A stretch of DNA of 64,000 bases from an uncultured Flavobacteriaceae bacterium (lineage in GTDB: Bacteria > Bacteroidota > Bacteroidia > Flavobacteriales > Flavobacteriaceae), in the NCBI GenBank assembly GCA_947503005.1, contig CANNCA010000009.1, positions 1-64,000 of the forward strand, in the 5' to 3' direction. Shown one piece after another: positions 1 to 28,210 of this stretch. Below the pieces are notes generated by a model. That model saw nothing but the letters and a program-made list of their open reading frames with translations. It searched no databases and was not told the origin of the DNA. The position numbers were made by a program, and so were the translations under genes. How positions within the stretch are numbered: the stretch's first letter is position 1; every line of letters begins with the position of its first letter.

Positions 1-765
1 CGCCCCGCTGAAAGAACTCAGGTCGAACTTGATATAGGTCTCCCTGTTGCCCTGTTCCGTCCGTAGGATCGGGCCCAGGGGACTCGGGTTGCTAGCGCCC
101 ATCAGGTAGGTCGCCTCGATAAGGTCCGCGGGTCCTTCCATGGAACTACAGGTCACCGCAGGGTCGTCGCCGTCCACTAGGCCGTCGCAGTTGTTGTCGA
201 TGCCGTCGCAGACCTCCGTCGCATCCGGGTTCACGTTAGGGTCGTTGTCGTTGCAGTCCACATCACTAAAGAATCCGTCGCCATCATTGTCTATGTTTCC
301 AATATCTCCGGTTGTTAATATTAACTGTGGTGCTTGCGAACTCTCGTCAGAGGCAAAGGCAACATCATTGCCGTTGCTATGTTTGACTATAAGTGTTAAT
401 ATACCGTCACTGGCCAACCGCTTCACATTTAGATTCCAAGTCTTTATTTCGTCAAGACTATATGTACCTGAAATCGAGGCTAAGGGACCTCCTATCACAG
501 TAGGTTTGTTGCTCCCATTGAGACCTGTTTCCGTCCAACTTGAATCGCTTCCCAAAAACACTTCAACCACACCATTACCAGGATCACTGACCACTTGCAT
601 TTGTAAGACTGCCTGAGTAATCGGTTCACTAAAAGTACTCAGGTCGAACTTAAGGTAAGCCTCCCTATTCCCCTGTTCGACCCGTAAAATAGGACCAGTG
701 GGGCTAGGGTTAATCGAACCCTGTAAATAGGTCGCATCGATTAAAGTAGCAAACCCTTCCAAAGC
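1..765 (-). repeat. DNRLRE/CBM96-like copies 1 (partial) and 2, separated by a MopE repeat
   Basis: Copy 2 lies at about 315-765 and copy 1 at about 1-140, running off the edge. The shared signature is ATYL(M/Q)G, NPSP(T/L)GPILR, a YLKFDLSSF-like strand and KHSNGNDVAFASDE. The MopE linker at 170-300 shares a 58-base perfect match with 6081-6138 in the neighbouring gene. Confidence 0.75.
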
Positions 766-3700
766 TTCACAAGTAACGTCCAGATCAACATCATCAATCA
801 GACCGTCACAATTATTATCGATACCATCGCAGACCTCCAAAGCTCCAGGGTTTATCGCTGGATCATTGTCGTCGCAATCCACATCCGAACAGTAACCATC
901 ATTGTCCGCATCATCCGTTTGAGTACATCCTGAAGTTATAATACTGCAACCATTTTCGTCAATGATTTCCCCTGGAGGTGTGTTTGGACAGTTATCATTC
1001 GAATTATTTACATAACCCACTGGTGTTTCGCAAGCCACTATACTGTTATTGAAATCTCCCAAGCCATCACCATCAAGATCTGCATAAAAAGTACTTGACA
1101 ATTGTTCATCAATTTCACCATCGCCGTCATTGTCTATTCCGTCACATTCTTCAATATCACAAACATCACCTATTCCATCATTATCAACATCACTTTGGTT
1201 GGTGTTTGGCGTTTGAGGACAATTATCATCCTCATTTTTAATACCATCGCCATCTGAATCCCCGTCAATTATTAATTGAACAGTGGTGGATTTACCCAAA
1301 TAATCAATCGTCAGAATGTCCTCACCCTCACTTAAACCTTTTAGTAATCCATCATCTCCAACTTCTGCATTACCTTCTTCAAATGAATACGAGAAGTTCT
1401 CAACTTTAGAGATATCACGTTTGATTCCATCATCATATTGCCCAAATACTGTTAGTTCCAATTGCTCACCCACTGAAAGGTAAATAATACTTTTATCGAC
1501 TTCTATTGACTCTAAATTTGCATTGGTCGATACGATTATATGAGTAGAATCAAAAGCTGAATAACCATTTTCATCAAAGCCAACACTGACAATTTCCAAT
1601 CGACCTAAGGCAGTCTCCGGTATTGTGAAACCGAAGCTAGAGTTTGAAACATTTTCTGCCACATGGTTTTGCAAACGCGTTATGGAATTGCCCATAGCAG
1701 ATACAATATTTTGTATTCCATCGCTGCCATTGGCTTCAATTGCTACAGTCTGCCCCGCACTAAATTCTGCTCCCTCAATTGGAAGTACTATTGAAATATT
1801 TTCATCCGAATTGGAGGCTATTGGGCTATTCTGTGCATTAAAATCACTTGTCAGTACTAGAGGATTGAATCCTTGGCGCGAAAAGAATTCAGGATTCCTT
1901 GAATTCTCATTTAGTAAGTCGGCTGTATATTTCTGAATATCTTGATCTTTCGTCGAACTAATATGTGAAAGGTTATCAAAATTTGTCGTATTCTGAACAC
2001 CCCCTATTTGACTTTGCTTTGGCACAAAAATATCATGTTCGTCATTATTGTACAGATAACTACTTAAGGTGAAATTTTGATACGGAACATTATGGTATTT
2101 TATTTGGTTCGCTAAAAATGTAACAAAACTATCTAAAAGAATTCTGGAAGTTATTGCTTCGGTGGTTATCGTATGAATACTTATATTTTCGTATTTATCT
2201 GAATTACCACCTAATCTCAAACGGGTAATAAAATCGCTACTAGTACTTAAATCATCTATTACACCATTATTTGGATTAAATCCCACTTTCTCGCTTAGTA
2301 AATTTAGCCAGCCATAGGATGGGGATTTAAGTAAATCTGCCATTTGGGACCCAGAATGTGGTGTGTTATAAGTGATTAGTTTGTTAATATCATAATCATA
2401 GGAATTACTTTGAATATATTGTCTAGCCAACAAACCGCCATTACTATGTGCTAAAATATCCAGTTTTCCAGCTGAGATATTTTTAATTCGAGCAACTTCT
2501 TTTGCTCCCTGAAGATGATTCTTGAAAATTGTAGCATTTTTACTATTGGATTTATCATTAGGGTAGTTGGCAAAATATATTTGACCAACATCGTACATAC
2601 CACGGTCAATTAAGTCCTCTTTCATTTCTCCAAAAGCTTTTGTACCATTAGACCATATACCATGAACCATAACAATTGACGGTCTTACAATTTTAATCAC
2701 CAAATCCTCTATAATGGCTTCGGTTTCGGAATCAAAAAATTGTACCGTAACTTCCTTTTCCTTTTGATTTTCATTAGGGAAATATTCGGGATGATTATAG
2801 ATTATCGTAAGACTATCGTTAAGTATCTCTCCTAATTCAAAACTTCCAAATATTTCGGCGTTACCGTTTTCATCTTCTAGAATTTTAGCCGCTATTTTAT
2901 CATAGTTAAGTCCAGAATATTTAAATAAAGTCGAAGAAGAACCATCTGCTGCAATCTTTAGGTCATCTAGTTGTAGTTTATGTTCAATTAGCCGCGCATC
3001 AAAATTATATACCGATAAATTACAGGAATTTTCAGTATAACTCCCGGTAGGGAATCCATTCCAATTAGCCGAGCTATAAGCAACATCGTCTACTTGAATA
3101 CAAGTAAGGTTCGGATTATTAAATGCATCGTATGCCCAAAAGTCAGGACTCTTATTGTTTCCATTTTTAACATTTATACTTCTCAAGTCGTTGTTATTAG
3201 CGGATAAAAAATACAAATTGGATTGACCGGACAAATCCAAAGTTTTTAGCTTATTATTACTTACATCTACATAAACCAATTCTTTTTGACTAGATAAATC
3301 CAATTCTGTTAAATTATTATTCTTTATTTCTAACCATCCTAGAGATTCATTTTTAGATAAATCGATATCGGTCCATTTCGTAGAACTAATATCCAAATAA
3401 CCTAAAAGAGGAAGTACGGACAAATCAACATTAGCAATGTCAGTATTTTTAATAATCAAACTCCGAAGCAAGACATTTTTGCTCAAGTCAATACCAGTTA
3501 TCTTCAAATTTCTAAATGCAAGAGTTTCAAGTAAGGTATTTTGACTTAGGTCAAGATTAGAAATATTGGTGCCGCCAAAAGACAAAATTTTCAAATTGTT
3601 ATTCTTGCTTACATCTAATACGGACATAACTTCATCTCCAGTAAACCTTAAATCTTCCAACGAATTATTGGTTGTGACATCTATCGAGGTTAATTTTCCA

Positions 3701-4470
3701 CTTAAAGTCAGTTTCTCTAAATTAGAAGCTCCTCTTACATCGACACTAGCAAGTGCGGGACTAGAACCCGAATCTAAATTAATCAGTGATGTGGCTCCAT
3801 TCGCATTAATAAAATTTAAAAATTCATTGTATTCGCAGAAAACGTCCGTCAATGAATTGGATTCACTTATATCCAAAGAAGTTGTTGCAGTACGTATAAG
3901 ATTCAGCTCTTTCAATGCATTTGCACCGTTCAGTTTTATATTTGCCAAAGAACTAGCCGTAATTTCCAAAAATTCTAATGCGATATTTGTACTAACATCT
4001 AAATCTGTCAGACCAATTGAGGTAATTATCAAATACTCTAAAGAAATTGCTCCTGAAAGGTTTAGAGAATTTAGGTCATTATTACCTTGACAACGTAATT
4101 CTATTAGATTTTGATTGCTACTTAAATCTAAATCAACAATAGGGTTTTCTCCAACGCTGAGTGTTTCCAAAGCAATGTTGCTCGTTAAATCTAATGAGGT
4201 CAAATTATTTCTTCTTACATCCAAGCTTATCAAAGAACTAAAATCCTCTATGCCTACTAGGGATGAAATGTTATCGTTAAATAGATATAAGGAGGCTACA
4301 TCGCTAATATTTGCTGTGTCAACAAAACCATCCAACTGGTTGTCATAGCCCAAATTGATTAATGCTCTTTCAAAATTATCATCTGGAATAAATGTGCGCT
4401 GCGCCGTTAAATATGAAAAAGAAAAAAAAAGAAGAACTAAGAGTATTCCTTTTTGATGAATGCGCCCCAT
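1..4470 (-). CDS. Secreted LRR plus serine-hydrolase mosaic protein, C-terminus outside window
   Basis: Reads from ATG at 4468-4470 and stays open to base 1, so 1490 residues are visible and the end is missing. A signal peptide (residues 1-23) leads into leucine-rich repeats at about 25-485, with roughly 21-residue steps such as LTSLDLTSNIALETL. An alpha/beta-hydrolase domain follows: MVHGIWSNG from residue 601, nucleophile elbow AHSNGG with Ser676, Asp813 in HDIFVP and His836 in LSHISS. This is the residue order of PGAP1/lipase-like serine hydrolases. Then come an Ig-like stretch, thrombospondin type-3 and MopE-type calcium-binding repeats (CDGIDNNCDGLIDD), a DNRLRE/CBM96-like domain, another MopE and the start of a second DNRLRE. 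Bases 1-240 are about 62% GC against about 32-45% in sampled lines of the rest. The substrate is unknown. A T9SS sorting domain is expected beyond the edge by analogy with its neighbours. Confidence 0.85.
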   Translation of the reverse strand, partial: MGRIHQKGILLVLLFFSFSYLTAQRTFIPDDNFERALINLGYDNQLDGFVDTANISDVASLYLFNDNISSLVGIEDFSSLISLDVRRNNLTSLDLTSNIALETLSVGENPIVDLDLSSNQNLIELRCQGNNDLNSLNLSGAISLEYLIITSIGLTDLDVSTNIALEFLEITASSLANIKLNGANALKELNLIRTATTSLDISESNSLTDVFCEYNEFLNFINANGATSLINLDSGSSPALASVDVRGASNLEKLTLSGKLTSIDVTTNNSLEDLRFTGDEVMSVLDVSKNNNLKILSFGGTNISNLDLSQNTLLETLAFRNLKITGIDLSKNVLLRSLIIKNTDIANVDLSVLPLLGYLDISSTKWTDIDLSKNESLGWLEIKNNNLTELDLSSQKELVYVDVSNNKLKTLDLSGQSNLYFLSANNNDLRSINVKNGNNKSPDFWAYDAFNNPNLTCIQVDDVAYSSANWNGFPTGSYTENSCNLSVYNFDARLIEHKLQLDDLKIAADGSSSTLFKYSGLNYDKIAAKILEDENGNAEIFGSFELGEILNDSLTIIYNHPEYFPNENQKEKEVTVQFFDSETEAIIEDLVIKIVRPSIVMVHGIWSNGTKAFGEMKEDLIDRGMYDVGQIYFANYPNDKSNSKNATIFKNHLQGAKEVARIKNISAGKLDILAHSNGGLLARQYIQSNSYDYDINKLITYNTPHSGSQMADLLKSPSYGWLNLLSEKVGFNPNNGVIDDLSTSSDFITRLRLGGNSDKYENISIHTITTEAITSRILLDSFVTFLANQIKYHNVPYQNFTLSSYLYNNDEHDIFVPKQSQIGGVQNTTNFDNLSHISSTKDQDIQKYTADLLNENSRNPEFFSRQGFNPLVLTSDFNAQNSPIASNSDENISIVLPIEGAEFSAGQTVAIEANGSDGIQNIVSAMGNSITRLQNHVAENVSNSSFGFTIPETALGRLEIVSVGFDENGYSAFDSTHIIVSTNANLESIEVDKSIIYLSVGEQLELTVFGQYDDGIKRDISKVENFSYSFEEGNAEVGDDGLLKGLSEGEDILTIDYLGKSTTVQLIIDGDSDGDGIKNEDDNCPQTPNTNQSDVDNDGIGDVCDIEECDGIDNDGDGEIDEQLSSTFYADLDGDGLGDFNNSIVACETPVGYVNNSNDNCPNTPPGEIIDENGCSIITSGCTQTDDADNDGYCSDVDCDDNDPAINPGALEVCDGIDNNCDGLIDDVDLDVTCEALEGFATLIDATYLQGSINPSPTGPILRVEQGNREAYLKFDLSTFSEPITQAVLQMQVVSDPGNGVVEVFLGSDSSWTETGLNGSNKPTVIGGPLASISGTYSLDEIKTWNLNVKRLASDGILTLIVKHSNGNDVAFASDESSQAPQLILTTGDIGNIDNDGDGFFSDVDCNDNDPNVNPDATEVCDGIDNNCDGLVDGDDPAVTCSSMEGPADLIEATYLMGASNPSPLGPILRTEQGNRETYIKFDLSSFSGA

Positions 4471-4666: not shown

Positions 4667-7600
4667 TTACCGTTCTATCAGCATCTTTTTCTCGTGCGGT
4701 ACACCGTTAACGTCGAAGGTCCTGACCAGGTACACGCCACTGGGCAGTCCGGCCACGTCCATCTTGTACTCGCCCACCTTGCTCACTTCGCTCGCTGGTA
4801 CGGCCTGTAACAACTTGCCCGTCATGTCGTAGACGAAGATGGCGCTCATCTTCTCGGGCACTTTGAAGCCGATGTCCACCGCGCTCCTGGCAGGGTTGGG
4901 CCATAGGTTCAGCTCGTTGCCGTTAGGCGGTAGTCCGGAACCTGCCGTGGTGAGTATCAACTGTGGTGCCTGCGCCGTCTCGTCCGAGGCGAAGGCCACA
5001 TCGTTGCCGTTGCTGTGCTTCACGATCAGGGTAACAAGACCGCCACTGGGCAGTTGGGCCACGTTAAGGTCCCAGGTCTTGGTCTGGCCCACGCTATGGG
5101 TGCCCGTTATGGTCGCCAGGGCACCTCCCACTTCCGTAGGCTTGTTGCTGCCGTTAAGGCCGTTCTCCGTCCAGTTGGAACCGCTTCCGAGGAAGACCTC
5201 CAAGGTTCCGTTGCCGGGATCGCTCGCCACCTGCATCTTGAGCTGTGCCTGAATGATCGGTGCGTCGATGGATCCCATGTCGAACTTCAGGTAGGTCACC
5301 CTGTTGCCCTGTTCCACCCTTAGGATGGGTCCGGTAGGGCTCGGGTTGGCCGCTCCTTGAAGATAGGTGGCGTCGATAAGGTCCGCAGGCAGCTCTACCA
5401 CGTCGCAGTCCGTACCGGGGTCGTCCCCGTCCACAAGTCCGTCACAATCGTTGTCCTTGCCGTCACAGAGCTCCGGGGCCCCGGGAAAGACCGTTGGGTC
5501 GTTGTCGTCACAGTCCACGTCGTTGTCGAAGCCGTCACCGTCGTTGTCCACCGGTACGATGCTTCCGGCCGTAATCGTCAACCGGGGTGCCTGCGCCGTC
5601 TCATCGGAGGCGAAGGCCACGTCGTTGCCGTTGCTGTGCTTCACGATCAGGGTCAGCGGGCCGCCGCTCGTTAATTGGGCGACGTTCAGGTTCCAGGTCT
5701 TGGTCTGGCCCACGCTATGGGTACCCGTCAGCGTTGCCAAGGCACTGCCGACCGTACTTGGTCTGTTGGCTCCGTTGAGGCCCGTCTCGGTCCAGTTGGA
5801 ACCGCTCCCCAAGAAGACCTCCAAGGTTCCGTTGCCCGGATCGCTCGCCACTTCCATCTGTAGGGTCGCTTCGGTGACGGGTCCGCTAAAGGAACTCAGA
5901 TCGAACTTCAGATAGGTCTCCCTGTTCCCCTGTTCCACCCTGAGGATCGGACCTAAGGGACTCGGGTTGCTCGCACCCATCAAATAGGTGGCCTCGACAA
6001 GGTCCGCCGGACCGCTCATCGCATCACAGGTCACCGTAGGGTCCTGGTCGTCGATCAGACCGTCACAGTTGTTGTCGATCCCGTCGCAGACCTCCGTCGC
6101 ATCCGGGTTCACGTTAGGGTCGTTGTCGTTGCAGTCCAAATTGTTGGCTACGAATCCTGGTTGGATCGCGCACAACTGCGTCGCCCCGTCCGGATCGCCG
6201 AAACCGTCACCGTCCGAATCCACGTAAAAGGTGTCGGTCATCAAGCCATCGTCAACGATATCGTTACAATCGTTGTCCTTGCCGTCGCAGAGCTCGGGCG
6301 CTCCGGGATAGACCGTTGGGTCGTTGTCGTCACAGTCCACGTCGCTGAAAAAGCCGTCGCCGTCGTTGTCCACCGGTGCCTCCACGAAACTGAAGTTTAT
6401 CGTAACAGGGGTGCCCATGGTGCCGCCCAGTGCGTCCGCGCTATAGGGCGTGGCGGTCAGGGTGTACGGGCCTAAAGCGAACATATTGGGGTTGAAGTCC
6501 GTGCCGTTGTTGCCGAAGAGCGCAAAGGGTGCGAAGTTCTCCGTCATCGTATGGGACTGGGTCCCCGAAAGGACCATGTTGACGCTCTCCACATCGCCCG
6601 TTGTGAGCGCATCGATGTTCAGGTTCATGCTAAGGAACGAGCTTACGTCGATCGTGGCACCATCGGTCAAAGGACCGATAACGACATCGTTCTCCGCGTC
6701 GATTAAATTGAAACTTAGTACGGAAAGTACCGTTGGGGCTTCCTCGATTGTGATGGTCTGAACACAACTTGCTGAATTACCTGTCAAATCGGTCGCGGTC
6801 CAGGTTCTGGTGATTATTTGGCCGTCCAATGCATCGACAAAAGTCACTTCTTCGATACCTCCTTCATCGGTGGCGGATGCCGTACCAGTATTCGAGGGAT
6901 CCGTTGGATCGCCTGCGGCAATAGTGACATCGGCAGGGCAAACAATTACCGGTGGGGTCGTGTCCAGTTCAATTGTGACAGATACATTATACACTGTCTG
7001 ATTTTGCCCATTCTGTGCCGTTACCGTGTACGGAACGGATCCTTCTGAAAAATCTACCTGATCACCAGAAGCAGGATTTACCATGGCAAACTCCGAAGCG
7101 GTAATCATAGGTGAAAGCGCTCTTAAATTCGTTCCGAGTGACATGACCACCTGTATATCGGTACCAGAAATCGTTGTAGCCCCCACTTGATCCTCTATAG
7201 TAAAAGCAGTGATATTGCTGCCAGAATTTGGCATGAAGTTCACCGTTACCGTTTGTTGGCAAGTGTCCACATTTCCGGAACTATCGGTCGCGGTCCATTC
7301 GATTAAAGTAGTCTCTAAGGGAAAGGAGTAATTCTGTGGATTCAATGTCAATTCCATCGTGCTCGTATCTGGAAAGGTTGCTATACCAGATAGCGTTATT
7401 TGACCGTCACAATTGTCTACCACCGAAGGTGGTGTTATTTCAATTTCCAATGGCTGTCCACTCAAACTTGTTTGAACAATAGGCTCACTACAAGTCAAAG
7501 TTGGTGCTATTTCATCGACTACGGAAACTTCAGCGGTTACCGCCAGACTCTCATTACCGGCCTCATCCGTGACCATAAAGAATACCAATACAGGGCCACC

Positions 7601-14820: not shown

Positions 14821-14842
14821 ACCGAACATTAAAACTAAACCT

Positions 14843-14966: not shown

Positions 14967-15028
14967 ATTTTTTTAATCAAGAACCACTTTTTCTTGCCGT
15001 CAACTTTGACAACCCTGTCACGATGGGT

Positions 15029-18000: not shown

Positions 18001-21000
18001 AAAAACTATTCAAAAAAATCGCTGGATATTGACCTGTTATACTTACTGTATATGTTCCTGGTATTGCATAAGTATGCTTAATTAAACCTGTCACTCCTGA
18101 ATCAATATTACCATCACCCCAATTTACAGTATAGTTGTATGTTTCGAGAGTAGCCGTCCCAATCATTATCTCATTTTCGTTTGTGCCAGGGTTATCTGTT
18201 TTCCATGTGGTGATAAATGCGTCAGGATTTGTACAATCGCTACTCTTTCCCCCATCGGCAATCGTCCACCCAAAATCATCGATTAGTTTTTGACGGGCTT
18301 CTTCGCCAAGGCAATATTGGCTGTTTCCACCGTCGAAGGTTACGCCGTTTTGTAGTTGTTGGGTGCTCCAGCCATTTAACATAGCATCATAGTTTTCTGT
18401 CTTCAAGGTAACGCCGAGTAGTATCTCATTAAAATCGGTTACAGCTCCTATCTGCCAAGCGTCAAGATTTTGATCAAAACTTGTTGCAAACTCGAATAAC
18501 CCATCCATGATTTGAACATTTGAAACATCCCAATTACCAATATCTTGATTAAAAGCGTAGGTATAAGACAGCATACGACTCATATTTGTAACATTTCCTA
18601 CATCCCATGAGCTAATATCTTGATTGAAAGTAATTGCCGACCGCAACATACCTTGCATATTTTCAACCTTAGCAACATCCCATCCTCCTATATCTTGATT
18701 GAAAGAACTAGCACCGCCCAACATCCCAGCCATCTGAGATACGTTGCTTACATCCCAACCACCAATATCTACATTGAATTGAGACGCACCGATAAAAGTG
18801 GATGCCATTTCTGTTATTGTGCTTGTTTCCCATTGTTCCATTGAGCTATTAGCGACAAGTGAAGTACATCCAGCAAACATGTTCGTCAAGCTGGTCACAC
18901 CTGAAAAATCGGGAACATCTTCAGCTACAAGATTAAGATTGGGACAGTACCAAAATGAAGACAACATCGAAGACCATTCTAAATCACCCCATTGGTTTAT
19001 TAAAATTATTTTTTCGTTGTCTCCGCCACTCCCAAAATCAATATGAGGAAAATTACCATTAATTCTAATTTCATAGGTCCCCGGCTCATCATACGTATGT
19101 GTAATGTTTCCGTTCACACCTTCATCAATATTGCCATCACCCCAATCAACTATGTAATCATAACTATAACCTAAATAACTTGCAGATGTGGGAATCGTAA
19201 TCTCATTATCGTTGGAAATACCAGGGTTATCGGTTTTCCAAGTGGTGATAAATGGCCTTTTTTCAGGAGCGCATTCTTCGGCTTGACCCCCGTCAGTAAT
19301 CGTCCAACCAAAATCATCTATTAGTTTTTGGCGGGCTTCTTCGCCGAGGCAGTATTGGCTGTTGCCACCATGAAAAGTTACTCCGTTTTGGAGTTGTTGG
19401 GTGCTCCAGCCTTCTAGCAGTGAATCGTAGTTCTCTATTGAAAGAGTAACATCTTCGAACATATCGGTCATGTCGGTCACATTGCCAACATTCCAATTAC
19501 CTAAATCTTGATTAAAAGAATTTGCGGATTTAAACATCCAAAACATGTTGTTGACATTTGAAACATTCCATCTGGAAATATTCTGGTTAAAAGAGGAAGC
19601 TTGTTCAAACATTTCTGCCATCATTGTTACATTTCCAGTATCCCAATTTCCGATATCCTGATTGAAACTGGAATTTTGTCGGAACATTCCTCCCATACTT
19701 GTCACGTTGCCCACATCCCATCCACTAATATCTTCGTTGAAGTCGGTAAGACCAAACATATTAGCCATACTAGTCACTTTAGCAACATTCCAATCACTTA
19801 TATCTTGATTGAAAGAGGAATCATAAAATAGGTGTTCCATATTTGTAACTTGCTCTACATTCCAACCACCTATGTCTCGGTTAAAGACAGAAAAAGCAAA
19901 CATACCATCCATCCTCACTACGTTACCAACATCCCAATTACTGATATCTTGGTTAAAAGCGCTGCATGAGTTAAACATAGACCACATATGGGTGACATTG
20001 CTAACATCCCAATTGTTTATAGCATCATTAAAAACCAATGATTGACAGCCTCTAAACATATGACCTAAAAAATTGACCTCAGATAAATCGGGTGTGTCTA
20101 AAGCTATAACGTCAAGATTGGTACAACCATCAAAAGCTCCACTCAAATTTGACCATTTCTGAGATCCCCATTGATTTACCTTGAACAATTTCAAATTATC
20201 TTTTTGTTCGCCATTGATTATTCCAAAACTTATTGCCGGAAATTTACCTGAAATTGATATTTCATAAATTCCTGGAGTATCGTAGGTATGCGTAATATCG
20301 CCAGTTACCCCAGTATCTAAAGTACCATCTCCCCACGCTACCGTAAAATCATATGGGCCGACCAAATTACTTCTCGAAGTATGAATGGTTATCTGATTAT
20401 CCTCTGAAACTCCTGGATTATCCGTTATCCAAGTAGTGATGAAAGGTAGTTGTTCTACAACGTCACAATCTTCAGCTTTACCACCATCCGTTATTACCCA
20501 GCCGAAATCATCGATAAGTTTTTGGCGGGCTTCTTCGCCAAGGCAGTACTGGCTGTTGCCACCGTCGAAGGCTACGCCGTTTTGTAGTTGTTGGGTAGAC
20601 CATCCATTCAAAAGAGCATCATAGTTAGCCGTAGAAAGTCCTGCATTAGCGAACATTTCTTCCATATCGTTAACAGTTGAAATATTCCAATCGCTTAAAT
20701 CTTGGTCAAAGGCGATGGCCTCCTTGAACATATCGTTCATTCTTTGTACGTTACCCACATTCCAAGATGATAAATCTTGATTGAATGTCTTCGCCAACAA
20801 GAACATACCGCCCATATACTCTGTATTCGAAAGATCCCAATTTCCGATGTCTTTATTAAAAGAACCGGCCCTTAGAAACATTTGTGATAGATTTTTGGCG
20901 CTACTTAAGTCCCAAGCTCCTATATCTTGGTTAAAGGCTTCGGCACTGGCGAACATATTGATCATGCTTTCCACTTTACCTACGTCCCATGTCCCGATAT

Positions 21001-24000
21001 CTTGATTGAAGATTTTTAATCCACCAAACATACCATTCATGTTTGTAACACTGCTCACGTCCCAACTCCCTATATCTTGATTGAAATATTCGGCATAACT
21101 AAAAAGAAAAGACATATCCGTCACGTTGCTCACATCCCATAATCCGAAGCTCGAATTACCTATCAAGGAGTCACAACTGGTGAACATTCCGCTCATACTG
21201 GTAACCATTTCCAAATTAGGTATATCTGTTGCCTTCACATCTAAATTATGGCAATATTGAAAAGCACTTTCCATAGAGCTCCACTTGATATCTCCCCATT
21301 GTTCTACGGATATTATTTTCTCGTTTTCACCAGAACCGTTTATAAGGTATATTCTTGGGAATTCTCCTGTTATTGAAATGGTGTATGTGTTCGGAACGGC
21401 ATAGGTATGGGTAATATTTCCTGATACTCCAGAATCTATTGTACCATCTCCCCAATCTACCGTATAATTATAAGTTTCTCCTGAAAAGGTGGGAATCGTA
21501 ATCTGATTATTCGCCGAATCACCGGGATTATCCGTTTTCCATGTGGTGATAAAGGGTCTTTGCACTTCTGGTACAACTCTTGTAGTAACAAGGAGCTGGG
21601 GTGCCTCATTCGTCTGATCTGAGGCGAAAGCTACATCATTACCGTTGCTATGTTTTACTATTAAGGTCAGGAATCCACCTGTTTCTATAGTACTGACGTC
21701 AAGATTCCAAGTCTTGGTCTGACCGACATTATGTACTCCTGCGATTGAAGCAATCGCATTACCTACAATAGTCGGTTTATTAGCTCCGTTCAGGCCGGTT
21801 TCGGTCCAGTTCGAATTGCTGCCAACGAAAACCTCCAAAGTACCATTACCTGGGTCACTTGCAACTTGCATCGTCAATTGGGCATTGGTAATCGGGCCAT
21901 TGAAAGAGCTGATATCGAATTTCAGATAGGTTTCCCTGTTACCTTCCTCGATACGTAAAATAGGACCTGTTGGGCTCGGATTGCCAGAACCCTGCAAATA
22001 GGTCGCATCAATCAACTCGGCAAAACCTTCAACTTTCGTATCACAATCCTCAGCTATTCCGGCATCGTTTATGGTCCAACCAAAATCATCAATTAGTTTT
22101 TGGCGGGCTTCCTCAGCCAGGCAATATTGGCTAGTGCCACCAGTCAATTCGATACCTGTAGGTATTTGAGTCTCATTTGTGCTTAACATATGCCACCCTA
22201 TTAGGGTTTTATCATAATTCTCTGGCGAAAGACCAGCTTCATAGAACATAGATTGCATTGTGCTTACATTACTAATATCCCAAGCCCCAATATCCTGATC
22301 GAATGCATTGTTTAGAAAAAACATTCCGGCCATGGTTGTTACACTAGAGACATTCCATGAACCAATATCTTGATTGAAGGCTTCCCCCCTTGAAAACATA
22401 AAATTCAAATTGGTCACATTACTAATATTCCAAGAACCAATATCTTGATTGAAAGACTTAGCTCGATTGAACATACTTCCCATAAAAATGGCGCTGCCAA
22501 CATCCCAAGAACCAATATCTTGATTAAAGGCATTAGTTCTCGCAAACATTCCCGTCATACCGGTCACTTTACTAACATTCCAACTACTTATATTTTGGTT
22601 GAAATTCAGAGCGCCGTTGAACATATTGCTCATATCACTTACATTGGCTACATCCCAGTCATTCATTGACACATTTCCAATAAGTGTAGCACAATTCTCA
22701 AACATCTGGATCATGGAGTTAACTTTAGACAAGTCAGGTGTATCCACCGCCAACATCTCCATATTTTTGCATCCCTTAAATGCATTGAACATTGACCTCC
22801 ATTCTATATCACCCCATTGATCTACTGACAGTAGTTTTTCACCATCAATTATTTCAGATCTGAATTCTTTAGCTTGTACAAGACTTGGAAAAGTACCGGA
22901 AATTGAAACCTGATAAACACCAATTGACTCATACGTATGTGTTATGTCTCCTGTGATTCCGGAAGAAATAGTCCCATCGCCCCAATCCACCGTATAGTCA
23001 TAAACGTACCCATTTTCTGTATTCGTTGAAATTGTAATCTGATTATCTTCTGAGGTACCAGGGTTATCTGTTTTCCAAGTGGTGACAAAAGGTCTTTCCT
23101 CTGCAACTTTAACTACCCAAAAATCATTGCTTCCATAACTTATGGCGGTCTTATCCCCCGAAGGTCCACCATTTGATTGTCCGATCAAAATATATTGACC
23201 ATTACCCAATGACAAAATTTCATTAGCAAAGTCAGATCCCTCGCCTCCTATTGACACATCCCAAATTTTGTTGCCAAACATATCTGTTTTTACTAACCAA
23301 ATATCATTTTGACCATTACTGGTAGCATCAATATTACCTGACCTATAACTGCGTGTACTACCAGCAAAAAGTAATTGTTCATCTGATGCTACAACATCGT
23401 TCAAACCATCATTGAAGAATCCTCCAAATGAAAGATCAAATATTTTATTACCCGATTGATCCAAAGCCAATACCCAACCGTCACCTTGCCCAAATGATGC
23501 TAGAGTTTTATCGCCAGAATTTCCACTATTCGACTGACTTGGTATAATGAGATTTGAATTTATTGAAGCAAACCTTGAAGCGAACTCATAGCTCGCCCCG
23601 CCATAGGTTTTATCCCATAATTTATTACCATCCTCATCAATAGCTAACATCCAAATATCTCTTTCTCCTCTAGAATTTTCTGATTTTTCAGAACTAGCAT
23701 TACTATTTGAAGTACCTAAAATGATTAAACTATTGTCATCTCTAATATAGCTTGAATCAGGAATATCACTAATGCTACCACCATAGGTTTTATCCCATAT
23801 CTTAGTACCATATTCATTAATTTTAATCACCCAATAATCACCGTTTGTCCCTCGATTGTTCTCAGATTTGTCTCCCGAGATGTTGCTTACGGAAGTACCT
23901 ATTACAAAAAAGTTTCCGTCACTTGTTCTTTCAATAGTATAAGGCGCATCATAACCGCTTCCTCCAAATGTTTTATCCCAGAGTACGTTCCCAAACTCGT

Positions 24001-24427
24001 CTACTTTAACTACCCAATAATCTAAATTACCTCTTGAGTTTTCAGATTTATCTCCGCTAATATTACTTTCAGAAGAACCACCTAGTAAGTAGCCGCCATC
24101 GTCGGTTTTTGTGATAGACTGCAAGATATCATCATCCGAGCCACCATAAGACTTTTGCCAAATCAAGTTGCCGTCTAAATCGATTTTCATTAAAAGAAAA
24201 TCCAGTCCGCCATTTTTATTTATTTCACCCTCATAATTAGTAATAGTACCATATTCGTTGAATTCACTAATACCAGCAATTAAGAACGAATCATCATCTG
24301 TAAGTATGGCGTCCGTAAATCTTTCGGTATCCGAAGTTCCGAATGATTTATCCCATTCTTTTGTTATTTGGGAAAAGCAGAGGTTACATATAATGTTACA
24401 AAGCAAAAGGATAGTAATTTTTTTCAT
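15029..24427 (-). CDS. Giant T9SS-secreted protein: seven-repeat propeller plus six PKD-BspA units
   Basis: This 3132-residue protein starts with signal peptide MKKITILLLCNIICNLCFSQ. Residues about 22-443 hold seven ~60-residue repeats of the type DGGYLLGGSS ... SGDKSEN ... DYWVVKVDEFGN..W, consistent with a seven-bladed propeller. Six units follow, each with an opening FITTWKTDNPG, a PKD-like VDWGDGT domain, BspA 26-residue repeats and a cap QYCLGEEARQKLIDDFGW. DNRLRE domains lie after units 1, 5 and 6. The C-terminus (about 3042-3132) is a type A T9SS sorting domain with LSPNPA and YVYDVLGR. The protein is predicted to be exported across the outer membrane and surface-attached. Its role in adhesion is inferred from the domains; no catalytic motif was recognised. 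Confidence 0.9.
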   Translation of the reverse strand: MKKITILLLCNIICNLCFSQITKEWDKSFGTSDTERFTDAILTDDDSFLIAGISEFNEYGTITNYEGEINKNGGLDFLLMKIDLDGNLIWQKSYGGSDDDILQSITKTDDGGYLLGGSSESNISGDKSENSRGNLDYWVVKVDEFGNVLWDKTFGGSGYDAPYTIERTSDGNFFVIGTSVSNISGDKSENNRGTNGDYWVIKINEYGTKIWDKTYGGSISDIPDSSYIRDDNSLIILGTSNSNASSEKSENSRGERDIWMLAIDEDGNKLWDKTYGGASYEFASRFASINSNLIIPSQSNSGNSGDKTLASFGQGDGWVLALDQSGNKIFDLSFGGFFNDGLNDVVASDEQLLFAGSTRSYRSGNIDATSNGQNDIWLVKTDMFGNKIWDVSIGGEGSDFANEILSLGNGQYILIGQSNGGPSGDKTAISYGSNDFWVVKVAEERPFVTTWKTDNPGTSEDNQITISTNTENGYVYDYTVDWGDGTISSGITGDITHTYESIGVYQVSISGTFPSLVQAKEFRSEIIDGEKLLSVDQWGDIEWRSMFNAFKGCKNMEMLAVDTPDLSKVNSMIQMFENCATLIGNVSMNDWDVANVSDMSNMFNGALNFNQNISSWNVSKVTGMTGMFARTNAFNQDIGSWDVGSAIFMGSMFNRAKSFNQDIGSWNISNVTNLNFMFSRGEAFNQDIGSWNVSSVTTMAGMFFLNNAFDQDIGAWDISNVSTMQSMFYEAGLSPENYDKTLIGWHMLSTNETQIPTGIELTGGTSQYCLAEEARQKLIDDFGWTINDAGIAEDCDTKVEGFAELIDATYLQGSGNPSPTGPILRIEEGNRETYLKFDISSFNGPITNAQLTMQVASDPGNGTLEVFVGSNSNWTETGLNGANKPTIVGNAIASIAGVHNVGQTKTWNLDVSTIETGGFLTLIVKHSNGNDVAFASDQTNEAPQLLVTTRVVPEVQRPFITTWKTDNPGDSANNQITIPTFSGETYNYTVDWGDGTIDSGVSGNITHTYAVPNTYTISITGEFPRIYLINGSGENEKIISVEQWGDIKWSSMESAFQYCHNLDVKATDIPNLEMVTSMSGMFTSCDSLIGNSSFGLWDVSNVTDMSFLFSYAEYFNQDIGSWDVSSVTNMNGMFGGLKIFNQDIGTWDVGKVESMINMFASAEAFNQDIGAWDLSSAKNLSQMFLRAGSFNKDIGNWDLSNTEYMGGMFLLAKTFNQDLSSWNVGNVQRMNDMFKEAIAFDQDLSDWNISTVNDMEEMFANAGLSTANYDALLNGWSTQQLQNGVAFDGGNSQYCLGEEARQKLIDDFGWVITDGGKAEDCDVVEQLPFITTWITDNPGVSEDNQITIHTSRSNLVGPYDFTVAWGDGTLDTGVTGDITHTYDTPGIYEISISGKFPAISFGIINGEQKDNLKLFKVNQWGSQKWSNLSGAFDGCTNLDVIALDTPDLSEVNFLGHMFRGCQSLVFNDAINNWDVSNVTHMWSMFNSCSAFNQDISNWDVGNVVRMDGMFAFSVFNRDIGGWNVEQVTNMEHLFYDSSFNQDISDWNVAKVTSMANMFGLTDFNEDISGWDVGNVTSMGGMFRQNSSFNQDIGNWDTGNVTMMAEMFEQASSFNQNISRWNVSNVNNMFWMFKSANSFNQDLGNWNVGNVTDMTDMFEDVTLSIENYDSLLEGWSTQQLQNGVTFHGGNSQYCLGEEARQKLIDDFGWTITDGGQAEECAPEKRPFITTWKTDNPGISNDNEITIPTSASYLGYSYDYIVDWGDGNIDEGVNGNITHTYDEPGTYEIRINGNFPHIDFGSGGDNEKIILINQWGDLEWSSMLSSFWYCPNLNLVAEDVPDFSGVTSLTNMFAGCTSLVANSSMEQWETSTITEMASTFIGASQFNVDIGGWDVSNVSQMAGMLGGASSFNQDIGGWDVAKVENMQGMLRSAITFNQDISSWDVGNVTNMSRMLSYTYAFNQDIGNWDVSNVQIMDGLFEFATSFDQNLDAWQIGAVTDFNEILLGVTLKTENYDAMLNGWSTQQLQNGVTFDGGNSQYCLGEEARQKLIDDFGWTIADGGKSSDCTNPDAFITTWKTDNPGTNENEIMIGTATLETYNYTVNWGDGNIDSGVTGLIKHTYAIPGTYTVSITGQYPAIFLNSFSSRERLLSVDQWGSSKWSTMELAFKGCTNLDVLATDIPDLSNVTSLRSMFWGCTNLKGNSSFAQWDLSNVTNISNMFSNTGFNQPIESWNVSNVTDMGFVFNESSFNQDIGNWDVSKVREFSGMFQKSPFNQDIGSWDVSQATGMYGMFAGNTAFNQDISNWNFQNVNSFFAMFRDANSFDQDIGNWNVTNVTIMTDMFTGAALSEANYDKLLKGWSTQELQNGVTFDGGNSQYCLAEEARQKLIDDFGWTITDGGKADSCDIVVEGIADLVDATYLQGFGNPSPTGPILRVEEGNRETYLKFDMSSFSGPITEATLQMQVASDPGNGDLEVFLGSDSDWTETGLNGGNKPSAVGSPLANVSGTHSLGQTKTWNLDVSNIVGGDKITLIIKHSNGNDVAFASDETLKAPQLLITSINEPEVQRPFITTWKTDNLGVSEDNQITIPTFPGEIYNYTVDWGDGTSNAGVSGDITHNYANPGIYTVSISGLFPRIVFGVFGIPNAPNLDSDSKKIISIDQWGSNVWGSMAYAFTSCTNLDVHATDIPNLKNVSNASFMFSDCHSLTGNNSMNNWDTSSFVDISYMFSSAEIFNQNIDQWETSRVTNMEEMFASTIFNRDIGSWNTSKVTNMEEMFERSSFNQDISNWDVSNVENMTEMFQIGSFNQDLSSWRITSAKIMTNMFNYSGLSNENYDTILTSWSELTELQSGVQFGALTNQYCLGEAARQKLIDDFGWTITDEGKAENCNIPMEGVADLIDATYLQGFGNPEPTGPILRTEEGNRETYLKFDLSSFSGAITNAQLTMQVASDPGNGTLEVFLASDSNWSETGLNGGNKPSVVGAAIASVSGTHGLGQTKTWNLDVSNLIGGGEITLIVKHSNGNDVAFASDETNQAPQLTIISGGSGLSNKSANTLSLSPNPASYETNITLKEPGELVKVYVYDVLGRMVGSYEGTAIENDSSYVLDVQSLPTGTYYVKSFDEKGNAYQKQMLIKK
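15310..15765 (-). repeat. DNRLRE/CBM96-like domain, copy 7
   Basis: Last DNRLRE copy of the 3132-residue protein, directly before the sorting domain. It contains a 33-base block (15341-15373) identical to 4976-5008 in the neighbouring gene, although flanking bases differ. Confidence 0.75.
16755..17205 (-). repeat. DNRLRE/CBM96-like domain, copy 6
   Basis: Sits between PKD-BspA units 5 and 6 of the 3132-residue protein. It shows the signature ATYLQGFGNPSPTGPILR and KHSNGNDVAFASDE. Base composition is close to that of the surrounding gene. Confidence 0.75.
21585..22030 (-). repeat. DNRLRE/CBM96-like domain, copy 5
   Basis: Sits between PKD-BspA units 1 and 2. It shows the signature ATYLQGSGNPSPTGPILR and a YLKFDISSF strand. 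Not GC-rich, unlike copies 1, 3 and 4. Confidence 0.75.
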
Positions 24428-24769: not shown

Positions 24770-24784
24770 TTTTCACTAGAAAAA

Positions 24785-27700
24785 CTATTTATTTATAATC
24801 ACTTGACGTTGATATCGATTGCCTTTATTATCATAAGATTTGATATAATAAGTACCTGCTGGTATTGATTCGATATTTAAAATGTACCTGTCATCATCTT
24901 TAATGGTTTTGCCCTTGTAAGAACCGACTCTACGGCCCAAGATGTCATAGACGTAAATTATTTTTAATTCCGCTGGTTTTTGGAAATTTAAAGTAGTTGT
25001 TGTGGATGCAGGGTTGGGCGAAACACTCATATCATTTGCACTCTTGTCACTTACTTGATCATCTAACAGCTCAAAATTCATGGATAAAGGGGTTCCCATT
25101 TCCCCGCCCAGTTGTGTTTCCGAATACGGAATTGCAGTAATAGAAAACGACCCAGGCGTAAATTCACTACCAAAATAATTTTCAGCCGGAAAGTCGCCAT
25201 ATAGCGCAAATGGAACTACATTTTCGGTTCTTGATGTTGTCAGGTCACCGTCCAACATTAAACGAACACTCTTAACATCTTCTGTTGTATTTGCCCTTAC
25301 GTTTAAATTCAATGTAGGTAAGGTGCTTATATTGATTTGCATTCCTTCGGTCAAGTCCATAATATCTTGATTGGTATCGGCATTCACCAAAGTGAAACTT
25401 TGCACTTTCAATACCGGAGGTACCACCTCAATGGTTTGTACCGCGCTATTTTCACATGCCGTTTCTACGTCGATATACGTGTAGGTAATCTCATAAGTAC
25501 CTATACCAACGGATGGATCGAAAGAATCATTTGTAACTCCTTCACCTGAATACGATCCACCTTCAGGTAGTCCACCAGTTAATTCAAATGAACCAGAATC
25601 TTCAGATACCGTCGAAAAGCTCGAAAGTGTTACTTGAGGAATTTCAGGGTCTTTAAGTTCAAAGGTAAGCTCGGCACTACAATTATTCGCATCTGTGGCT
25701 GTAACGGTATAAATTCCAGCTTTTAAATCAAGGGCCAAATCCGAAACGTTATCTTCATCATGGCTCCAAGAATAGGTCACTGGTAATTGCGCACCTTCGT
25801 TCGATAATAAGGCAAAGCCATCCACGCCTGAACAGGTACTCGGATGAGCAGTATCTAGAATCGTAATTGCAAAATTGGAACATGCTTCTGTGATACTGAA
25901 ATTTAGAGCGATTTCTTGGCCCATTTCACCTTCAAGACCTTTTTCCGTATAAGGTGTGGCGGAGATGGAATATGTGCCTAGTCCGAGGTCATTACCAAAA
26001 TAGTTCTCCGCAGGGAAATCTCCGTATAAAGCAAATGGAGGTACGTTTTCAGTTCTGGTGATACTCTGTTCTCCTGCCAAACTAAGTTGAACGCTCATTA
26101 CATCATCGGTAGCATTTGCCCGAATATTCAAATTCATAGTCGGAAGGTCCGTAGTATTGATTTCCATACCTTCTTCTAGTAGAAATATATCTTCATTCGT
26201 ATCGGCATTGACCAACATAAAATCGGTAATCGAAAGCAACTCTTGGTTCATAGATACAATAACAGTTTCGATGATTGTAGTCGTATTCATACCATCACTA
26301 ACGCTGTAGGAGACTAAAAAAGGACCGCCCTCTACAGAAGTATCTACTTGATCATCACCTAGTATTTCCGAAACTGTAAGGTTTTCATCTATTACGTTGG
26401 TAATCTCTCCGACTACATAAGCATCCCCTACTTCAAGCTCAGTCACAAAATCTTCGGAATTTCCTTTAACTTCAAAAGTTGGGGGTGTGGTATCTTCTTG
26501 AACGTTTACGGTTACCGTCCATTCTTGTTCTGAGCCGTCTTGTGCCTTAACAACATAAATGATGGGTTCAGTGAAATCGATTGTATCTCCCAATTCAGGT
26601 ATACTGGTCGCACTATCGGAAATGTCAAAAGAGGGAACCAACGCCGTTACATCAGTACCAATCGGCATAAGCACCTCGATTGTATTTTCTGTTTGGTCGA
26701 TACTTGTTGCTCCCACTTGGTTCGGTATTGAAAAAGCAAGAATATCATTGTCCATCGAAGCTGTAGATTCAACTACAATGGTCTGAATGCATTCTTCCAC
26801 ATTGCCTGAAGCGTCCGCTGCTTGCCAGTTTATAGTCGTAGTACCCACTTCAAACGGTGCATTCAATTCTTGTTCGTCACTTCTGGAATACGTAAGAACG
26901 GGTGCTGTATCACAGTTATCCGTAACAATCGGTTCCACAACATCTTCAATGGGAACAGCTCCTCCATCAGAACTTGTGGTGATAATGTCGGCACCGCAGG
27001 TGAACGTTGGTTTCAATTTGTCGAGAACGGTGACTTCAACATTGGTCACAGTGCTGGTATTTCCGTTCGCATCCAATACGGAGAATTCTACCGATACAGG
27101 CGTATCTAAATCAGCGCAGGTGAATTCGGTTCTACTTGCCATATACGCGTCGATACCACAATTATCGAATGATGGTGTTTCTGGATTATCCAAATCCTCC
27201 GGGGCGATCGATGCCATGCCGTTTTCATCAAGTTCAACCGTTATATTTTGGGCAATAGCCGTTGGTAGTTCTATCTCTACTACACGAATCATTTGATCAC
27301 AAGGTAACGAAGTATTATTCGCTTCATCCGTGGCAGTCCATGTAACCATGGTATCACCAACAGGAAAAGGTTCCTCTAAATCTAAACCATCGCTGCGAAC
27401 CGCGGAAAATGTAAATTCTGTTGAGATGTCATCCATAGCAGTTGGAACTAGCAATGGAACTACCGATGAACATTCCCCCTCATCATGATTGGTTTCAATC
27501 ATTTCGGGACATTCTATTGTAGGAGGTGTTGTATCGTTTTCTATAGGTACAATTCCTGGTGAGCCAATATCATTGCCTGAATTACCATGGAGCTCATTGC
27601 TCTGAAAGGCATCTGCTATGCCGATTTCACTTAAGGCCCAACTTGCACCTAAAGTATTGTCTTCGTCCACGTCCGTTAGAAAAATAGAACTTGCAGCGTT

Positions 27701-28210
27701 GGAATCTACCCAGCCATTGGCGTCATCGTAAATGACTTGTTCAATGACATTCAGTTGAGAAACATTATCGCCATCATAGGCTTCAAAACTATCCCAGATT
27801 CCAACCGAGTCTCCAGAATTATTCAATCCTGGCCATCCACTTACTGGTATAGCGTTCAAATCGCCCCATACAGCAGTAAATTCTTCCAAGGTCACATCCG
27901 AATCAAAAAGTATTGCGACACCACCTCCTGATATTGAACCACCAAAAATATTGGCGCTGCCCTGTTTTGTATTGTTGTTATCATCCAAAACATATCCTGT
28001 TAAGTCAATTGGTTCAGTACCCTTGTTATAAACTTCAATCCATTCCCAAGCACTATCCGAGCTATTAGGGTGGTACATGATTTCTGTAATCACAAGGTTG
28101 GATTCCATTGCGATAGTAGTTTCGGATGATTTAAAATCGTCCTGGAATTCAGAAGAAGATGATGAAAACAGGCTCAAAAAAAATAGAATGGTCAGTGTAA
28201 AATTTGTCAT
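24785..28210 (-). CDS. T9SS-secreted lamin-tail/HYR domain protein
   Basis: The chosen start is ATG at 28208-28210, giving signal peptide MTNFTLTILFFLSLFSSSSS; an in-frame TTG seven codons upstream is less likely. Near the N-terminus is a lamin-tail domain (NLVITEIMYHPN, WIEVYNKGTEPIDLTGYVL). HYR-type domains follow (PTIECPEMI, PTFTCGADI), then a DUF5018-like domain (IPNQVGATSID) and a DUF5011-like Ig domain (GDAYVVGEITNV). A ~115-residue module appears twice (SFTLVNADTNQDI ... PFALYGDFPAENYFG), separated by a SprB-like YSWSHDED segment. It ends in a T9SS type A sorting domain (SVSPNPASTTTTLNF to RQVIINK). Surface or extracellular function is inferred; no catalytic motif was seen. Confidence 0.88.
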   Translation of the reverse strand: MTNFTLTILFFLSLFSSSSSEFQDDFKSSETTIAMESNLVITEIMYHPNSSDSAWEWIEVYNKGTEPIDLTGYVLDDNNNTKQGSANIFGGSISGGGVAILFDSDVTLEEFTAVWGDLNAIPVSGWPGLNNSGDSVGIWDSFEAYDGDNVSQLNVIEQVIYDDANGWVDSNAASSIFLTDVDEDNTLGASWALSEIGIADAFQSNELHGNSGNDIGSPGIVPIENDTTPPTIECPEMIETNHDEGECSSVVPLLVPTAMDDISTEFTFSAVRSDGLDLEEPFPVGDTMVTWTATDEANNTSLPCDQMIRVVEIELPTAIAQNITVELDENGMASIAPEDLDNPETPSFDNCGIDAYMASRTEFTCADLDTPVSVEFSVLDANGNTSTVTNVEVTVLDKLKPTFTCGADIITTSSDGGAVPIEDVVEPIVTDNCDTAPVLTYSRSDEQELNAPFEVGTTTINWQAADASGNVEECIQTIVVESTASMDNDILAFSIPNQVGATSIDQTENTIEVLMPIGTDVTALVPSFDISDSATSIPELGDTIDFTEPIIYVVKAQDGSEQEWTVTVNVQEDTTPPTFEVKGNSEDFVTELEVGDAYVVGEITNVIDENLTVSEILGDDQVDTSVEGGPFLVSYSVSDGMNTTTIIETVIVSMNQELLSITDFMLVNADTNEDIFLLEEGMEINTTDLPTMNLNIRANATDDVMSVQLSLAGEQSITRTENVPPFALYGDFPAENYFGNDLGLGTYSISATPYTEKGLEGEMGQEIALNFSITEACSNFAITILDTAHPSTCSGVDGFALLSNEGAQLPVTYSWSHDEDNVSDLALDLKAGIYTVTATDANNCSAELTFELKDPEIPQVTLSSFSTVSEDSGSFELTGGLPEGGSYSGEGVTNDSFDPSVGIGTYEITYTYIDVETACENSAVQTIEVVPPVLKVQSFTLVNADTNQDIMDLTEGMQINISTLPTLNLNVRANTTEDVKSVRLMLDGDLTTSRTENVVPFALYGDFPAENYFGSEFTPGSFSITAIPYSETQLGGEMGTPLSMNFELLDDQVSDKSANDMSVSPNPASTTTTLNFQKPAELKIIYVYDILGRRVGSYKGKTIKDDDRYILNIESIPAGTYYIKSYDNKGNRYQRQVIINK

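Follow-up and report, generated by a model that had tools for sequence, protein, structure and literature searches.

The window, a stretch of 64,000 nucleotides that begins at the very start of contig C9, carries four large open reading frames (P0001, P0002, P0003 and P0004) in a row on the minus strand, in agreement with the original prediction of four very large secreted proteins encoded side by side on one strand. DNRLRE/CBM96, MopE, PKD-PARCEL-cap and HYR modules and T9SS tails recur across these genes. The proposed module pool common to three genes was correct as to the sharing and too narrow in extent, since P0004 also belongs to the pool through its HYR and SFNL modules and its tail. 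The seven DNRLRE copies expected in three neighbouring genes were found, two in P0001 (one truncated by the contig end), two in P0002 and three in P0003, and six of the seven exceed the Pfam CBM96 cut-off. P0002 holds one PKD-PARCEL-cap block and P0003 six; HYR exceeds the Pfam cut-off both in P0002 and in P0004, and so does the T9SS C-terminal sorting domain PF18962 in P0002, P0003 and P0004 as well as on contigs C10 and C16. SFNL, a module of about 118 aa without Pfam match at E 0.1, was named in this analysis. On the basis of these sequence features, the giant proteins are predicted to be surface proteins secreted by the T9SS. The layout is as follows, in window coordinates unless a contig is named.

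1..4470, minus: P0001, 1490 aa, running off the contig end; in order leucine-rich repeats (aa ~26-413), lipase-like domain (aa 599-775), MopE, DNRLRE, MopE, DNRLRE (cut)
310..753, minus: P0001 DNRLRE 1, host-like GC3 0.40
1..261, minus: P0001 GC-rich 3' part, from near the start of the second MopE, GC3 0.81 against 0.28 before
4..132, minus: P0001 DNRLRE 2, first 43 codons; bases 1-77 identical to C16:1-77
4667..14752, minus: P0002, 3361 aa; in order matrixin-like N-terminus (weak), Big_5, HYR, PKD-PARCELx8-cap, HYRx2, SFNL, MopEx2, DNRLRE, MopE, DNRLRE, T9SS tail
8069..9307, minus: P0002 PKD-PARCELx8-cap block
4667..6703, minus: P0002 GC-rich 3' cassette (SFNL, MopE, MopE, DNRLRE, MopE, DNRLRE, tail), GC3 0.78 against 0.36 before
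6371..6724, minus: P0002 SFNL module
5567..6010, minus: P0002 DNRLRE 1, GC3 0.79
4946..5389, minus: P0002 DNRLRE 2, GC3 0.76
4670..4909, minus: P0002 T9SS sorting tail, second tail type, GC3 0.81
15029..24427, minus: P0003, 3132 aa, host-like GC3 0.34; beta-propeller, six PKD-PARCEL-cap blocks, three DNRLRE, T9SS tail
23093..24364, minus: P0003 N-terminal beta-propeller
22055..23089, minus: P0003 PKD-PARCEL-cap block 1
21581..22024, minus: P0003 DNRLRE 1, GC3 0.43
20477..21553, minus: P0003 PKD-PARCEL-cap block 2
19283..20443, minus: P0003 PKD-PARCEL-cap block 3
18245..19252, minus: P0003 PKD-PARCEL-cap block 4
17231..18217, minus: P0003 PKD-PARCEL-cap block 5
16757..17200, minus: P0003 DNRLRE 2, GC3 0.43
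15785..16729, minus: P0003 PKD-PARCEL-cap block 6
15314..15754, minus: P0003 DNRLRE 3, GC3 0.45
15032..15271, minus: P0003 T9SS tail, GC3 0.33
24785..28231, minus: P0004, 1148 aa; lamin-tail domain, HYRx2, SFNLx2, T9SS tail
28945..29487, minus: acyltransferase gene (PF01553), constant flank
C10:7725-8435: yebC, opposite constant flank

P0001 is incomplete because the contig starts within it, and its tail would lie past that end. Enzymes had been expected at the N-termini of two proteins; P0001 instead has leucine-rich repeats there, its lipase-like domain (PF01674, E 1.7e-8) being internal, and the N-terminus of P0002 resembles matrixin (PF00413) with E 0.0049, under the cut-off, and gave an uninformative structure model (pLDDT 35). 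The propeller expected in one protein was located in P0003, where it matches CylK both by phmmer (2e-25) and, as a single-sequence model (mean pLDDT 62), by Foldseek (E 2.3e-15). The repeat model TIGR02167 (cut-off 30) scored 270.5 bits on P0003 and 57 bits on P0002, and NF045896 (cut-off 500) scored 669.7 bits on P0003.

The locus is not confined to the window: it continues on contig C10 and probably on C16, the C9-C16-C10 linkage being drawn from contig ends and flanks rather than from reads. C10 also has a G8 tract, which may be a sequencing error or a site of phase variation. We found no description of it in open-licence papers. The genus has 13 further genomes, of which nine (G002-G007, G009, G011 and G013) were picked for this comparison because they match P0004 or P0006, leaving G001, G008, G010 and G012 out of the flank comparison; G239, which belongs to another genus, was compared as well. 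Both flanks lie on a single contig in eight relatives (G002, G004, G005, G006, G007, G011, G013 and G239), and one flank was seen in G003 and in G009. Between the same two flanking genes, the relatives differ in which genes they carry, in how many modules these contain and in the N-terminal domains, and the eight interiors range from 2.1 to 30.6 kb and hold anything between a single broken remnant and four genes; the locus is thus not fully conserved among these species. Relatives of P0004 lie inside the hotspot in five of these eight genomes. This is a comparison between species, with one genome each and flank proteins roughly 57-97% identical, and the differences could be old. The hotspot of G239 contains an unrelated 315-aa gene with GC3 0.61, which indicates that such a site can accept GC-rich DNA. 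Counting the own genome, DUF285 is present in 14 of 39 genomes and in 6 of 26 genera.

Several observations indicate that neighbouring genes have copied and swapped shared modules. The original prediction of perfect paralogous matches over tens of bases held, the longest in a self-comparison of 1-29000 being 58 bp (203-260 against 6081-6138), a run reached in 20 of 20,000 random placements of the mismatches of that 256-bp pair. On C10, positions 1-510 and 7146-7655 are identical at 503 of 510 bases (98.6%), all seven differences are synonymous, and the identity stops at the stop codon; the first copy lacks its upstream part solely because C10 begins there. P0001 DNRLRE 2 and the DNRLRE of the C16 gene share 117 of 120 bases with unrelated DNA upstream, and C10 and C16 have 95 of 96 bases in common across the DNRLRE-tail link, after which the tail types diverge. 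Contig ends also fall inside identical DNRLRE stretches whose neighbours are unrelated. In the MopE-DNRLRE units of P0002 and P0006, 44 sites up to nt 284 group the units by position and 4 by gene, against 4 and 19 afterwards; this discordance between DNRLRE halves was reached in none of 50,000 permutations, and at third codon positions alone it is weak (1856 of 50,000). Two of the 15 inner branches of the DNRLRE tree are starred. A conversion signal within the locus was thus found, in the near-identical 3' ends, the module-bounded identity and the DNRLRE discordance. These same observations, together with jumps of GC3 at module edges or close to them and the unrelated neighbours of identical segments, speak against a reading as ordinary multidomain T9SS proteins, in which old duplications diverged independently and neighbours never exchanged sequence. 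That reading, already disfavoured, draws on the fact that most modules belong to common named families (SFNL and cap being unnamed), on the second-half DNA identity of 64.5-72.4% among the P0003 DNRLRE copies and on some PARCEL blocks that are orthologous between species by position, and we consider it quite improbable. Since this positional orthology is partly kept (5 of 27 inner branches starred in the block tree, with unsettled bootstrap), not all modules shuffle freely. The idea of a module-shuffling locus is thus supported in part, by the exchange signals and the variable interior, a role as a dedicated device that alters binding or enzyme cargo within the lifetime of a strain being hypothetical.

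Some of the shared modules unexpectedly stand out by a markedly foreign base composition. Four genes carry a 3' cassette with GC3 0.65-0.81 as compared to 0.38 for the genome (mean 0.379, sd 0.080, maximum 0.68 over 2058 windows from 318 own genes), and the jump in GC3 falls no more than about ten codons from a module edge. The change point was placed at codon 1403 in P0001 (support 1396-1404) and at codon 2683 in P0002 (support 2680-2699). The enrichment starts near module starts and ends at the stop codon where this is visible (P0002, P0006 and C10:1-510). Among the 25 genome-wide T9SS-tail matches, 21 of them above the cut-off, three have GC3 0.77-0.83 and one has 0.55, and all four of these lie inside the locus. 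Codon optimisation was ruled out as the cause of the high GC3, because GC1 and amino-acid make-up shift as well. An assembly or binning artefact, with GC-rich fragments of another organism joined onto these genes, would fit the three contigs that end inside modules and the exact 77-bp overlaps at their ends, which resemble k-mer graph overlaps. We nevertheless consider it very improbable: the jumps in P0002 and P0006 are internal to contigs, in open frame and flanked on both sides by low-GC DNA, the GC-rich modules have low-GC counterparts beside them, and genome completeness is 99.96 with contamination of 0.21.

No donor of the GC-rich cassette was detected among strong matches in 397 family, 395 class, 395 order, 198 G239-relative and 394 own-relative genomes (E 1e-15, 1e-50, 1e-50, 1e-40 and 1e-40, respectively; the groups overlap). 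GC was measured on the strong matches, weaker ones occurring in 24 further genomes; those strong matches that lie outside the own genome (G004, G011, G013, G239 and G1145) have GC3 0.20-0.50 over DNRLRE modules or the whole gene. A plasmid search yielded five records, all below 60% identity, and a phage search gave no match; a scan of named genomes gave MopE-driven matches of up to 61% identity among the matches listed, which says little on donors.

These empty searches would suit an origin in place, by repeated GC-biased gene conversion that is confined to interconverting copies and lifts their GC3 from about 0.4 to 0.8, a process that has been argued for in bacteria (PMC4450053). Also in its favour are the enrichment from module starts to the stop codon, the shift of GC1 and amino-acid make-up along with GC3, and the GC3 of 0.42-0.51 in the well-matching P0003 caps against 0.34 elsewhere in the gene. 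At the amino-acid level, the GC-rich DNRLRE copies resemble the genome's own GC-poor ones slightly more closely (69-74%) than those found in other genomes (up to 68%), a relation that the tree leaves open. Furthermore, the P0002 and P0006 cassettes have diverged and yet stayed GC-rich: 40 of their 155 synonymous differences are C/G swaps at a GC3 of 0.76-0.77 in both, to which a single import followed by long drift in this AT-rich host does not fit. Against conversion in place, a shift of this size would be extreme, P0001 DNRLRE 1 and the three P0003 copies remain at 0.40-0.45 beside GC-rich ones, and well-matched repeats in relatives (10 pairs of 13 found) show GC3 little above that of the remainder of their open reading frames, six being higher (by 0.01-0.19) and four lower. 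Of the longest, the G011 repeat (1059 bp, 97.9% identity) has GC3 0.24 against 0.27 in the rest of its frame and the G006 repeat (765 bp, 91.2%) 0.39 against 0.31. We therefore regard GC-biased conversion as unlikely, and as more doubtful still an active conversion neighbourhood where cassette copying itself drove this rise and the resulting direct repeats let segments like C16 loop out and swap sorting tails.

The locus is, in our view, probably a hotspot of homologous recombination at which mosaic T9SS surface proteins exchange 3' display cassettes, of which one family was probably introgressed from an unsampled GC-rich relative. The N-terminal part varies from protein to protein (propeller, lipase plus LRR, protease-like or receptor-L-like) and is joined to display modules (SFNL, MopE, DNRLRE/CBM96 and PKD-PARCEL) that are repeated in the C-terminal part, and to a T9SS sorting tail. 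Homologous recombination of the RecA type, together with gene conversion between like modules, would copy 3' cassettes between genes, and recombination in conserved flanks or modules would import genes from relatives. Most likely, the GC-rich cassette family entered from the unsampled GC-rich relative and afterwards spread inside the locus. From their families, DNRLRE and propeller modules are predicted to bind polysaccharides or surfaces, so new combinations would alter cell display. The GC-rich and GC-poor module versions act as a natural dye in giant surface proteins, so that recombination break points can be read directly in the sequence; both the way in which Bacteroidota build new T9SS surface proteins and the GC bias of bacterial gene conversion thereby become testable. 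It is to be noted that short-read assemblies can break exactly within such genes.

In antigen variation by segmental gene conversion, neighbouring surface-protein genes copy homologous segments from one another. The conversion tracts between paralogues at this locus are similar (weak at third codon positions alone), whereas we recognised neither a store of silent cassettes with one expression site nor any switching. Core-gene-flanked integration hotspots, many of them without recognisable mobile elements and recombining at their flanks (Oliveira et al. 2017, PMC5635113), share the constant core-gene flanks and the quick turnover of interior genes; unlike them, the present hotspot is dominated in the genus by a single protein class (giant, modular and mostly T9SS-tailed), and its interior genes also swap modules. 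As in PARCEL (palindromic amphipathic repeat coding elements; Roske et al. 2010, PMC2996958), for which spread by transfer and intragenomic shuffling was proposed, 25-residue DUF285/TIGR02167 repeats occur in large surface proteins with a patchy distribution among related genomes. In contrast to PARCEL, the clearest exchange involves the DNRLRE/MopE/tail cassette rather than the PARCEL repeats, and anchoring would be by the T9SS rather than as lipoproteins. The DNA dyad score of 25 PARCEL units of the window was reached in 38 of 100 synonymous-codon shuffles and so shows no excess, in a simple test of our own that differs from the published one. The DNRLRE copies above the CBM96 cut-off resemble the alginate-binding modules described in PMC9971899, and one window copy matches the solved alginate-lyase chain 7vbo weakly (E 0.0017). 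Hotspots and PARCEL shuffling are thus already known, and what is new here is the composition-labelled exchange of cassettes.

The first part of the window (1-28231) carries four large genes, all on the minus strand, whose modules were assigned with Pfam, NCBIfam and module models built in this analysis. The labels PARCEL, DNRLRE and MopE are the names of the models matched, and SFNL is a name we coined for a module of ~118 aa.

P0001, minus strand: LRR, lipase-like, MopE, DNRLRE, MopE, DNRLRE (cut)
P0002, minus strand: matrixin-like (weak), HYR, PKD-PARCELx8-cap, HYRx2, SFNL, MopEx2, DNRLRE, MopE, DNRLRE, T9SS sorting tail
P0003, minus strand: propeller, six PKD-PARCEL-cap blocks, three DNRLRE, tail
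P0004, minus strand: lamin-tail, HYRx2, SFNLx2, tail
Window 6371-6724, 25052-25408 and 25877-26233: SFNL copies, repeated in the locus

These four module maps confirm the mosaic surface-protein locus with shared modules proposed in the original prediction, and the locus could be extended onto another contig of the same genome, C10, and probably onto a third, C16. The SFNL copy of P0002 had no Pfam match at E 0.1; the module was present in all ten relatives from which stretches were fetched (G002-G007, G009, G011, G013 and G239). A sequence match to CylK (2e-25) and a moderate structural model support the assignment of the P0003 N-terminus as a propeller. Judging from their tails, the proteins would be exported by the T9SS, and the CBM96 and propeller families suggest carbohydrate or surface binding. 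The genome also encodes, outside the locus at C3:186374-194452, another large PARCEL protein, which has 2693 aa and 32 repeats arranged in two blocks; in the block tree it separates from the locus copies.

The locus continues beyond the window, which starts where contig C9 starts. Searches of the genome recovered more DNRLRE copies at the C10 start, at C10:6.3-7.4 kb and, partially, on C16 (7794 bp), both ends of which lie within the same modules.

C10:1-510: second half of a DNRLRE and tail
C10:1564-7655: further surface-protein gene, frameshift-split at an eight-G run; yebC comes next
C16 5184-5696 and 5739-6251, minus strand: two tandem phage-tail-collar proteins (PF07484), 170 aa

C9:1-77 is identical to C16:1-77, and a stretch of exactly 77 bp at the other C16 end recurs unchanged at both C10:192-268 and C10:7337-7413, overlaps that probably mark k-mer assembly at a collapsed repeat. 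A C9-C16-C10 chain fits these data, and C9-C10 with a looped-out C16 fits too. The eight-G run (C10:5223-5230), where the P0005 reading frame switches to that of P0006, could reflect either an error in sequencing or a tract prone to slippage in this surface-protein gene. The tandem PF07484 proteins sit amid surface-protein genes and adjoin a small dioxygenase-like protein.

The cluster is bounded by an acyltransferase gene (28945-29487) and yebC. Among relatives chosen for matching P0004 or P0006, both flanks lie on a single contig in seven genomes of the same genus (G002, G004, G005, G006, G007, G011 and G013) and one of another genus (G239), and the distance between them is ~2.1 kb in G002 (a broken remnant), ~4.3 kb in G007, ~4.4 kb in G011, ~8.6 kb in G005, ~8.7 kb in G239, ~21.1 kb in G006, ~27.7 kb in G004 and ~30.6 kb in G013. 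P0004 relatives occupy this hotspot in five of the eight (the G002 copy being broken), and the hotspots of G013, G011 and G239 yielded no gene that begins like P0004. In G002 the sole content from yebC to the acyltransferase gene is a P0004-like remnant whose reading frame is interrupted (G002:C247 ~5202-6739). The G006 (4124 aa) and G013 (3549 aa) proteins share the same kind of start, a Sortilin/BNR-type propeller, yet the latter has three DNRLRE and the former none. The G013 protein and P0003 have six blocks and three DNRLRE in common but differ in their N-termini, and that of P0003 found no match in those loci of relatives that were searched. A 1521-aa gene of G004 combines a P0002-like N-terminus (37% identity) with a different module order, and malectin, kelch and CBM6 are further domains in relatives.

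Exchange between genes is indicated by several alignments. C10:1-510 and C10:7146-7655 differ at seven of 510 bases (503 identical) and contain a perfect match of 335 bp; each difference is a synonymous third position, and similarity stops at the stop codon. DNRLRE of P0001 and of the C16 gene agree at 117/120 bases from the module edge, the upstream DNA being unrelated, and over the DNRLRE-tail link C10 and C16 share 95/96 bases before two different tail types. When both MopE-DNRLRE units of P0002 and of P0006 were aligned, 44 sites up to nt 284 grouped the units by position (the two first ones together, the two second ones together) versus 4 by gene, and past nt 284 19 sites paired by gene versus 4 by position, a discordance reached by none of 50,000 permutations, though weak on third positions alone (1856/50,000). 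Same-gene copies cluster in the cross-species DNRLRE tree for G013 (97/91) and G004 (97/95); most of the remaining forks lack support. These signals and the varied interiors of the relatives partly support the predicted module shuffling; free shuffling is disfavoured, because some PARCEL blocks are orthologous by position (G006 B1 with G013 B1, 100/97).

The 3' cassettes carry a compositional label. GC at third codon positions (GC3) rises from 0.28 to 0.81 at codon 1403 of P0001, about ten codons or less from the second MopE start, and from 0.36 to 0.78 at codon 2683 of P0002. For P0006 the corresponding values are 0.46 and 0.76, and for C16 0.36 and 0.65; in the last three the best change points lie within ~6 codons of the SFNL start, with support ranges up to 41 codons wide. 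In C16, a GC-rich SFNL (0.80) is separated from a GC-rich DNRLRE (0.86) by a low-GC insert. Past the stop codon GC falls to 0.23 (P0002), 0.29 (P0006) and 0.40 (C10:511-710). The background comprises 2058 windows, each 50 codons long, from 318 genes of the genome in 19 stretches and has a mean GC3 of 0.379, sd 0.080 and maximum 0.68; its only two windows at 0.68 fall in C10:40001-60000, where the genes look conjugation-like by eye. The genome contains 25 matches to the T9SS tail (21 above cut-off): three have GC3 0.77-0.83, all in the locus, that of C16 has 0.55 and the remaining 21 have 0.28-0.45. Homologous modules of G004, G011 and G013 range from 0.10 to 0.50, and genes of G239 and of G1145, a further genome with a cassette match, lie at 0.42-0.43.

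Such GC jumps are usually read as import from a GC-rich relative, which we consider the more likely origin here; no donor was found when one was sought. GC-rich DNRLRE share 69-74% aa identity with the genome's own GC-poor copies versus up to 68% with other genomes, a slightly nearer kinship without firm tree support. Over the 486 residues they share, the P0002 and P0006 copies differ by 155 synonymous changes, of which 40 are C/G swaps, and despite this divergence both remain at GC3 ~0.77; therefore either several GC-rich copies were imported or a bias acts locally. GC-biased conversion would explain why the GC-rich stretches stop where homology ends, but repeats of high mutual identity in relatives show no consistent enrichment over their surroundings (6/10 GC-richer, 4/10 lower). 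Import is favoured by an unrelated gene in the G239 hotspot:

G239:C33 ~4626-5571, minus strand: 315-aa gene, PorP/SprF-like by eye only

Its GC3 is 0.61 (windows up to 0.70) against a mean of 0.40 in surrounding windows. The top three G239 windows, all at least 0.65, are inside it, a fourth at least 0.65 being counted but not placed; the other stretches scanned (nine genomes) held no window at or above 0.65 except one of G013 at 0.66, outside the hotspot.

We conclude that stepwise module recombination at the hotspot is most likely. Neighbouring genes hold similar modules, which general homologous machinery would recombine; 3' display cassettes would thereby be replaced beneath differing N-terminal parts, an outcome seen in the present genes, and new genes may come in through the flanks. 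This proposal makes no claim of phase switching or immune evasion. Both the hotspot and modular surface-protein exchange are of known kinds, and the composition-labelled cassette is the unexplained and most interesting part.
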